In this document: piece after piece, positions 49,154-50,266 of the stretch
How positions within the stretch are numbered: the first letter of the stretch is position 1
Layout: the number at the start of each line of letters is the position of its first letter
Assembly (NCBI RefSeq): GCF_900119145.1
Contig: NZ_FPIY01000001.1
Location: 124,001 to 188,000, forward strand
Length of the DNA: 64,000 nt
Reading direction: 5' to 3'
From: Cellulophaga fucicola
GTDB lineage: Bacteria; Bacteroidota; Bacteroidia; Flavobacteriales; Flavobacteriaceae
Position numbers and translations under genes: made by a program
Notes under the pieces: model-generated
Databases searched by the model: none
The model's input: only the letters and a program-made list of their open reading frames with translations
Told to the model about the DNA's origin: nothing

Positions 49154-49161
49154 CAAATTTA
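49154..49161 (-). promoter_or_regulatory. -7 box of purL
   Basis: TAAATTTG on the minus strand matches TAnnTTTG perfectly, 33 nt before the purL ATG. It overlaps the end of the hyphenated palindrome at 49159-49177. Confidence 0.6.
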
Positions 49162-49319: not shown

Positions 49320-49510
49320 TAAAATGAAAAAGAGCCTTGTCGGCAAAAACAAGGCTCTTTTTACGAGAACACTATATGAAAATGAAAAATTTATTCTGAC
49401 TAATTATACTGCTAATATATAGCGAGTGTTTTGTTTTTTAAATTTTATGTTGTCAACTGCTAGATACTTGTTGTTTGTAAAGTAACTTATGTTGTTTTGG
49501 GTTTTTTATC
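49320..49510 (+). repeat. Tandem copy 1 of a 190-nt element with hairpin
   Basis: Copy 1 of a direct repeat with a period of 224 nt. The two copies differ at about 10 of the first 178 positions. It begins with a 14-bp stem, AAAAAGAGCCTTGT with its complement, around an 8-nt loop CGGCAAAA, followed by TTTTT. The stem could act as a terminator on either strand or be part of a small RNA. The tail after 49422 is T-rich and less conserved. Confidence 0.85.
49324..49422 (+). CDS. Possible 32-aa ORF in repeat copy 1
   Basis: ATG to TAG, translating to MKKSLVGKNKALFTRTLYEN and then a 12-residue tail ending in NYTANI. The ORF covers the hairpin. Identity between the copies is 96 of 99 nt inside the ORF and drops straight after the stop. 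Translation is not proven; the hairpin explanation competes. Confidence 0.25.
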   Translation: MKKSLVGKNKALFTRTLYENEKFILTNYTANI

Positions 49511-49543
49511 AATAAAAAATGAATACAAAAAACAAAAGCCCTT

Positions 49544-49734
49544 TAAAATGAAAAAGAGTCTTGTCGGCAAAAACAAGACTCTTTTTACGAGAACACTATA
49601 TGAAAATGAAAAATTTATTCTAACTAATTATACTGCTAATATATAGTGGGTGTTTTGTTTTTTAAATTTTATGTTGTCAACTGCTTAATACTTGTTGTTT
49701 ACAAAGTAGCTTATGTTGTTTCAAGTATTTTTTA
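49544..49734 (+). repeat. Tandem copy 2 of the 190-nt element with hairpin
   Basis: Copy 2, 224 nt further on. Its stem is AAAAAGAGTCTTGT with complement; relative to copy 1 a C-G pair became T-A, so pairing is kept. The sequence between the copies (about 49511-49543) is unrelated. It lies upstream of the His-rich secreted protein gene. Confidence 0.85.
49548..49646 (+). CDS. Possible 32-aa ORF in repeat copy 2
   Basis: Same length and frame as the ORF in copy 1, with one residue change (Ala to Thr at position 11). The other two nucleotide differences are silent. Evidence for translation is weak. Confidence 0.25.
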   Translation: MKKSLVGKNKTLFTRTLYENEKFILTNYTANI

Positions 49735-49831: not shown

Positions 49832-50266
49832 ATGAAAAAGCTACATTTTTTATTACCTGCATTTATAATAGTAATGTCATTTACAGTAACAGCACAGGAG
49901 AAAAAAACTACAGAAAAAGAAAAGTTATCTTATTATGAGCAACGTGCTAAAGAAGATGCTGCTTACGAGCAGTCTACTGAAGTAGTAACAGAAGGCGAAG
50001 AAGAATTTTGGGAAGAACAAAAGGCTTACGAAAAGGATTTAAAGAAAAGAGATAGAAAAGCGTATAGAGCTTATATGAAAGGTAAGAGAGATGCTTATGC
50101 AGAACACGCAGAGCATTGTGACTCTCATTGTCACCATAGTAATTACTACCATAGTCACGCTACGTTTTACTATAGCTACAATAATTACAGAAGAGAACCT
50201 AGGCGTTCTACTGTAGTAAGAACTAACGTTGGTATTGGGATACCAAAGGTTAGAATTGGATTATAA
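49832..50266 (+). CDS. Exported His-rich protein of unknown function
   Basis: A 144-residue protein with a signal peptide (about 1-21, ending TVTAQ). A highly charged helical region follows (30-90, rich in Glu and Lys), then a His/Cys cluster around residues 90-112 (EHCDSHCHHSNYYHSHATFY), and a basic tail ending in VRIGL. The His/Cys cluster suggests metal binding in the periplasm. No family is recognised. It stands alone with its own terminator. Confidence 0.65.
   Translation: MKKLHFLLPAFIIVMSFTVTAQEKKTTEKEKLSYYEQRAKEDAAYEQSTEVVTEGEEEFWEEQKAYEKDLKKRDRKAYRAYMKGKRDAYAEHAEHCDSHCHHSNYYHSHATFYYSYNNYRREPRRSTVVRTNVGIGIPKVRIGL

Follow-up and report, generated by a model that had tools for sequence, protein, structure and literature searches.

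The two tandem repeats found in a 64-kb stretch of the Cellulophaga fucicola genome (i.e., the whole stretch of DNA analyzed, 64,000 nucleotides, here called the window) look like two neighboring genes for one short regulatory RNA (sRNA) that is common to a group of marine flavobacteria. The sRNA is probably switched on by a specific signaling pair, and in the majority of relatives examined, its core is able to base pair at the start codon of an mRNA for a CAP-domain lipoprotein. On the basis of genome comparisons, we hold with considerable confidence that the joint best explanation is a set of LytTR-activated sibling sRNAs, encoded on the minus strand in the window, that would pair with target starts, chiefly that of the CAP lipoprotein. 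The main signal lies in the near-invariant core, the boxes at 21-bp steps, and the conserved target, and not in the covariation of the hairpin.

Sequence comparison confirmed two tandem copies, 224 nt apart, between purL and a gene for a His-rich protein, as a previous reading made from the sequence alone (the sequence-only reading) had described. That reading gave the element a length of about 190 nt; the tandem arrangement held, and the measured direct repeats are 200 nt long (starts at 49320 and 49544; 91% identity). The copies differ at 18 of 200 positions overall and, in agreement with the earlier count, at 10 of the first 178. With purL (minus strand) taken to start at 49156, the gap measures 675 nt, and the His-rich protein gene (plus strand) begins at 49832 on the other side. 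The window holds no third copy, as had been noted: the 25-mer core matched only these two places with up to three mismatches (maximum of 0 in 100 dinucleotide shuffles). Elsewhere in the same genome, four further copies were found, three in tandem near C8:472 kb and a single one at 650 kb. The His-rich protein (49832-50266) is small and probably secreted and had no match in Pfam or NCBIfam; in close relatives, homologs of it (5 proteins, 11 instances) are found next to sRNA copies.

The features of both copies read on the minus strand, in the order of three perfect ACAACA boxes, a -7 box, the core UUUUCAUUUUCAUAUAGUGUUCUCG, and a terminator. The most conserved segment of each copy is the core adjoining the hairpin, rather than the hairpin itself. 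Start sites were inferred from the position of the flavobacterial -7 box, given as TAnnTTTG at -12 to -5 (PMC9723704). The features are as follows.

49327..49407, minus strand: sRNA gene copy 1, predicted transcript of ~81 nt with a start near 49407 (-7 box position, core, and terminator)
49327..49362, minus strand: putative intrinsic terminator hairpin of copy 1, the stem of the sequence-only reading (stem complementarity, consensus scan, and covariation)
49364..49388, minus strand: near-invariant core TTTTCATTTTCATATAGTGTTCTCG of copy 1, the presumed target-pairing segment (comparison)
49412..49419, minus strand: -7 promoter box TATATTAG of copy 1 (consensus TAnnTTTG, one mismatch)
49448..49453, minus strand: promoter-proximal ACAACA box of copy 1, beginning exactly 34 nt ahead of the -7 box
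49469..49474, minus strand: second ACAACA box of copy 1, 21 bp upstream
49490..49495, minus strand: third ACAACA box of copy 1, 42 bp upstream
49551..49631, minus strand: sRNA gene copy 2, predicted transcript of ~81 nt with a start near 49631 (-7 box, core, and terminator)
49551..49586, minus strand: putative intrinsic terminator hairpin of copy 2, its stem with the compensatory T-A pair (stem complementarity and covariation)
49588..49612, minus strand: near-invariant core of copy 2 (comparison)
49636..49643, minus strand: -7 promoter box TATATTAG of copy 2 (sequence)
49672..49677, minus strand: promoter-proximal ACAACA box of copy 2 (sequence)
49693..49698, minus strand: second ACAACA box of copy 2 (sequence)
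49714..49719, minus strand: third ACAACA box of copy 2 (sequence)

The hairpin reads as a Rho-independent terminator of a minus-strand sRNA. The 14-bp stems of both copies are fully complementary, and the two differences between them, 49335/49559 (C to T) and 49354/49578 (G to A), lie opposite one another; the compensatory change from C-G to T-A reported before is thus real. A scan with the terminator consensus returned copy 1 only, and the stem of copy 2 was identified by complementarity. Among 40 diverse homologs, 91.9% of the stem cells are paired, and changes on both sides occur in 47 cells, spread over 9 of the 10 pairs. None of 500 shuffles reached the observed values for cells paired, cells changed on both sides, or covariation score; 1 reached the number of pair types, and 15 reached the number of pairs with double changes. 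One half of what the sequence-only reading had made its case depend on, namely, homologs with further covariation, is therefore present in these 40 sequences. Its step from covariation to selection on RNA structure holds less well: the change itself is real, but covariation is expected of a terminator, and the main signal lies elsewhere. A T-run follows the hairpin in all of the 182 instances (of 190 unique ones) with flanks sufficient for checking the promoter and terminator. When 12 copies were folded, the terminator stem appeared in all, and weak helices touched part of the core in most; with a mean unpaired probability of 0.69 (166 predicted transcripts), the core is thus partly occupied.

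Aligned on the minus strand, the family-wide unit consists of the boxes ACCACAA and TTCACAACAATA, a -7 box TAnnTTT, the core TTTTCATTTTCATATAGTGTTCTCG, and a hairpin with a T-run, and the distance from the -7 box to CATTTTC varies between 33 and 58 nt. A box matching A[CT]HWCA stands exactly 34 nt before TAnnTT in 166 of the 182 instances; similar boxes were seen by eye in the remaining 16. A second box lies exactly 21 bp upstream in 155 of the 166, as direct repeats do in LytTR-regulated promoters, and a third lies at 42 bp in 60 (next-best offset, 11). The AC(A/C)ACA box has no obvious fit to the Gram-positive LytTR consensus.

An exact 26-mer was found in at least 119 stretches of GTDB contigs. 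Most of the 80 matches listed were named as Maribacter, Allomuricauda, Flagellimonas, Cellulophaga, Eudoraea, Muriicola, Robiginitalea, and others, genera that we take to belong to the Flavobacteriaceae; a few of those listed had less specific or unusual labels (Bacteroidia/Bacteroidetes MAGs, an Algicola MAG, and Cytophaga sp. FL35). The GTDB loci were chosen by an exact core, and invariance measured on them partly reflects that selection. A survey of 199 Flavobacteriaceae genomes, one per genus, allowed at most one mismatch and no indel. The core was present in 34 genomes (101 matches; none for the reversed control pattern). One-mismatch matches in two of these (G130 and G210) had no visible promoter or terminator and were judged to be due to chance. 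Of the 99 matches in the other 32 genomes, 10 were starts of CAP genes (see below) and 89 were taken as sRNA genes, with 1 to 6 per genome (one in 3 genomes). The 19-mer was exact in 87 of the 89, which is an upper view, since the search tolerated a single mismatch at most and excluded indels. The count of 89 is based on the core, and a one-mismatch match in genome G222 (C11:388217) fell outside the promoter and terminator check of the 182 instances. Diverged copies carry insertions (L044, inside the core, and L194) or a degenerate core; the latter, a regulator-adjacent copy (L183, genome G143) reading TTATTTATAGTGTTCTCCG, is possibly a decaying or diverging sibling.

A search of 60 genomes with copy 2 gave matches in 17 other genomes of the same genus (E of 2.1e-11 or better) and in 3 of 19 genomes of other genera in the family (E of 4.6e-14 or better), and none better than 6e-4 among 23 genomes of other families; the tally of 59 of 60 genomes at an E of ≤1 is mostly noise. 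All 18 genomes of the genus carry an exact match to the 18-mer complement of the core. Phage records gave short partial matches only, none covering 80% of the query, and a single core match in IMG/VR (L167), with no visible promoter or terminator, was judged to be due to chance.

The neighbors of the 190 instances point to a regulator. A same-strand response regulator lies upstream in 31 instances, a same-strand kinase of up to 682 aa lies downstream in 23, and menB adjoins 52. The regulator has the Pfam domains Response_reg and LytTR, and the kinase has TPR, HisKA_2, and HATPase_c. An ortholog of the LytTR regulator (≥78% identity) is encoded in all 32 sRNA genomes; among the other 167 genomes, 4 have a diverged ortholog (60 to 76%), and the remaining matches are at ≤45%. 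The Fisher test for co-occurrence gave 6e-33, a value without phylogenetic correction that ignores shared ancestry. In 17 of the 32 genomes, a core lies 117 to 207 bp downstream of the regulator gene on the same strand, with distances taken between the end of the regulator match and the 19-mer core. The genome that contains the window encodes the regulator and kinase together (C8:354.8-358.1 kb) in a menaquinone-type gene cluster, with no core in the 900 nt 3' of the regulator and no copy beside its gene. LytTR sites are described as 9-bp repeats with a 12-bp spacer (PMC2766830), which gives a 21-bp step equal to the spacing of the sRNA boxes.

Two further arrangements were observed around such genes. 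At three loci 3' of diverged LytTR regulators (L171, L172, and L173), similar ACAACA-type boxes and terminators were seen by eye around a different, coreless RNA-like body; L173 has several tandem units, two of which share a common CATTTGTTATA stretch. No similar boxes were seen by eye in the fourth genome with a diverged regulator (L174). In a Cellulophaga relative (G009; L030, 1949-4156), a gene for a 302-aa HisKA kinase occurs twice, one copy being split into two ORFs and sRNA copies lying to either side on the same strand; at L028 as well, an intact copy is flanked by sRNAs.

Candidate targets were sought in the 199 genomes with a 12-mer, GAACACTATATG, taken from the complement of the core. 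Outside the sRNA genes, its ATG was a likely ORF start in 12 of 18 matches in sRNA genomes and in 0 of 20 fetched from genomes without the sRNA (Fisher, 7e-6, shared ancestry ignored). A gene start was defined as an ORF of ≥50 aa from that ATG with <65 open codons upstream; without the upstream condition, the counts were 13 of 18 versus 5 of 20. The control comprised 20 of the 38 matches from genomes without the sRNA, L197 and L198 not being among them. Eight of the 12 starts belong to one CAP-domain lipoprotein of ~160 aa (PF00188 in three proteins tested; lipoprotein call by eye).

We then scored CAP gene starts (-12 to +13) against the complement of the core. In 30 of the 32 sRNA genomes (G190, scored separately, had a score of 11, and G097 was left out), 23 down to 10 of the 25 positions matched, with ≥16 in 23 genomes and ≥18 in 18. 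Among the 30 CAP starts taken from genomes that lack the sRNA, none reached 16 (best, 14); these were the best 30 with loci among 51 genomes with a match, of 64 searched. For cases and controls alike, the score was the best of several in-frame ATGs. Background ORF starts reached 16 or 17 in 10 of 867 cases and never 18 or above. The complementarity extends to 23 contiguous nt and lies on the start codon. Mean duplex energy was -22.5 kcal/mol for the CAP starts versus -9.1 for 860 background starts; an energy of -18 or lower was found for 25 of 30 versus 3 of 860, and 25 of the 30 duplexes were below those of all 300 shuffled cores. In the 23 paired genes, the 5' untranslated region is conserved mainly at -10 to -1 (1.31 bits per position), compared with 0.15 at -45 to -29 and 0.42 at -28 to -11. 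Seven of the 30 starts scored <16 in the fixed register (G169, G096, G126, G175, G200, G142, and G000). G169 and G096 pair by energy out of register (-19.8 and -19.7 kcal/mol), and the other five showed no pairing by energy (-10.7 to -4.0).

A CAP gene with ≥51% identity to the query, which was a chimera, is retained in 11 of the 18 Cellulophaga species, and the duplexes there range from -15.4 to -26.8 kcal/mol. The other seven species, including that of the window, have CAP matches at ≤45% only, and those scored gave -3.5 to -9.0. Second CAP paralogs in the paired species, of which a subset of 7 was scored as an internal control, gave -3.5 to -11.6. For the seven species without a paired CAP gene, the search gave no other target. 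Among two-mismatch matches in Cellulophaga, L313 to L316 lie within coding genes and were rejected as targets, and L311/L312 and L324 are at possible gene starts. In L311 and L312, from Cellulophaga relatives, the start of a 187-aa protein reads GAAAACAATATGAAAATG, which differs from the complement of the core at two positions (about -17 kcal/mol), and this protein is a possible extra target.

Several other mRNAs were considered. Feedback on the kinase mRNA was rejected, 36 kinase starts averaging -8.8 kcal/mol, close to the background of -9.1 (single starts reach -15). A small membrane protein with DUF6747 was scored in sRNA genomes only (30 loci, ≤16 of 25; 2 genomes carry the exact 12-mer at its start) and is left as a candidate for a clade-wide target. 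At L231 to L260, the starts of this 55-aa protein family, with several paralogs per genome, often read AACTATATGGGAACACTAT, which is partly complementary to the core on both sides of the ATG. The exact 12-mer was also at the start of an M23-like peptidase gene (named by eye) and of a gene for a 395-aa protein, in one genome each, and both are further possible targets.

From these comparisons, we propose the following circuit. A TPR-HisKA_2 histidine kinase and a REC-LytTR response regulator would form the two-component system that drives the sRNA genes; the regulator would bind upstream of a sigma-A promoter, at direct repeats of ACMACA spaced in 21-bp steps. Because the boxes sit upstream of the promoter, we infer that the regulator activates rather than represses transcription. 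The product would be a trans-acting RNA of ~81 nt with a near-invariant, weakly structured core and an intrinsic terminator at its end, and several sibling genes may raise the dose or integrate inputs. The core is predicted to pair with about -10 to +10 of target mRNAs, chiefly that of the CAP-domain (PF00188) lipoprotein, and the complementarity over the start codon suggests that pairing would block translation initiation. Hfq (PF17209) did not exceed the cutoff in any of 16 genomes, 12 of them sRNA bearing, in a search that detected controls in 5 of 14; sub-threshold matches were seen in G000 (with internal stops) and G019. Another RNA-binding protein, or none, would thus be involved.

We lean, with less assurance, toward a fuller reading in which the circuit is Hfq independent and Qrr-like. 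The core would be almost a trans-encoded antisense to the start codon of one CAP-domain surface lipoprotein and nearly frozen over ~32 genera, and the Cellulophaga lineage of the window would have lost the CAP partner but kept the sRNA, in two tandem clusters and one single copy. Since the partner gene is apparently lost and the sRNA genes remain, the core would have to serve a further regulon. In a few genomes, a diverged regulator would keep similar boxes and drive a different RNA body. Comparison alone thus supplies a candidate for every link, i.e., the signaling pair, the binding boxes, the RNA, and the pairing site. The near-invariance of the core is unusual and raises the question of what fixes it (a single target, many of them, or a protein), for which the Cellulophaga species whose searches gave no paired CAP gene are a natural experiment. 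To our knowledge, a regulator or a target has been described for few Bacteroidota sRNAs. Many Bacteroidota lack Hfq, and how trans-acting RNAs function there is an open question.

Other explanations account for parts of these data. It is fairly unlikely, in our judgment, that the family is real but controlled by another factor, with the co-occurrence of the LytTR regulator reflecting clade membership. The sRNA is indeed present in a set of related genera, and the link to LytTR was drawn at the sequence level, but the regulator linkage in 17 of 32 genomes, the agreement of the 21-bp spacing with the published LytTR geometry, and the similar boxes seen by eye before a different RNA body next to diverged regulators (L171 to L173) speak against this explanation. 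We consider it improbable that the core is a protein-binding sequestration element of the CsrB/RsmY type, the CAP match being secondary. The strictness of the core (87 of 89 exact with one mismatch allowed) and its persistence in the lineage of the window, where no paired CAP gene was found, would suit such a decoy. A decoy would, however, carry the CAP leader's own sequence, whereas the CAP mRNA carries the reverse complement, with up to 23 contiguous complementary nt positioned on the start codon.

The sequence-only reading had offered a small RNA, a regulatory leader, and a mobile element; among these, the small RNA has the strongest support. A mobile or repeat element (REP/MITE-like) spread in the Flavobacteriaceae would explain multiple copies, tandem arrangement, and varied neighborhoods; we give it very little credence, because copies occupy orthologous places in different genera (17 of 32 genomes have one after the LytTR gene, and menB adjoins 52 of 190 instances) and the conserved parts seen (boxes, -7 box, core, and terminator) are internal. 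A plus-strand cis leader or attenuator of the His-rich protein gene is likewise highly improbable. The copies do lie in the gap before the gene at 49832, and T residues follow the hairpin on the plus strand too, but the promoter boxes, spacing, and homologs all read on the minus strand, and the homologs adjoin unrelated genes, the nearest gene on either side being on the same or the opposite strand. As for a peptide encoded by a small plus-strand ORF (MKKSLVGKNK..., ~32 codons), the frame is open in both copies in the window and also lies within a 66-codon ORF over another copy of the genome; across the family, indels seen by eye, including the core insertion in L044, break the frame and stop, and the hairpin part changes freely, which makes this explanation extremely implausible. 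The minus-strand sRNA pairing with target starts remains the preferred reading.

Rfam includes a Qrr model, and the window had no match to this or any other model at the gathering score. The best sub-threshold match on a copy was PsrR1 (23.8 bits versus 42), and five homologous loci gave three weak matches, all off the copies. No description of the sRNA family was found in the literature searched, with subscription papers and preprints lying outside the search. The Qrr sRNAs of Vibrio, controlled by LuxO, are described as similarly arranged, with multiple siblings activated by a response regulator and located in varied genomic places (PMC4211561). The window family differs from them in its LytTR-type regulator, 21-bp direct repeats, flavobacterial -7 box, and target, in having no Rfam match, and in that no Hfq was found (16 genomes). 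OmrA/OmrB (EnvZ-OmpR; 88 and 82 nt) and the csRNAs (CiaRH) are likewise described as tandem or dispersed siblings under a two-component system (PMC4211561), and the window family is distinguished from these by another regulator family and the lack of an Rfam match. Rfp18 of Flavobacterium psychrophilum is also a conserved flavobacterial sRNA with predicted trans targets; it is described as strongly folded, its third stem-loop pairing with protease mRNAs (PMC9723704), and the window family is set apart from it by this description only. LytTR-activated promoters (SilA, VirR, and relatives) are described with direct repeats upstream of the promoter (PMC2766830), as here, whereas the window family has up to three repeats and its ACAACA boxes were compared by spacing only. 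Several homologous sRNA genes per genome, as in the Qrr, Omr, and csRNA kind, are present (89 matches in 32 genomes), and at the sequence level the family has its own promoter and intrinsic terminator, as two-component-controlled sibling sRNAs do. By analogy, the window family, with none of these systems matched in Rfam, appears to work like the two-component-controlled sibling sRNAs of the Qrr, OmrA/B, and csRNA kind.
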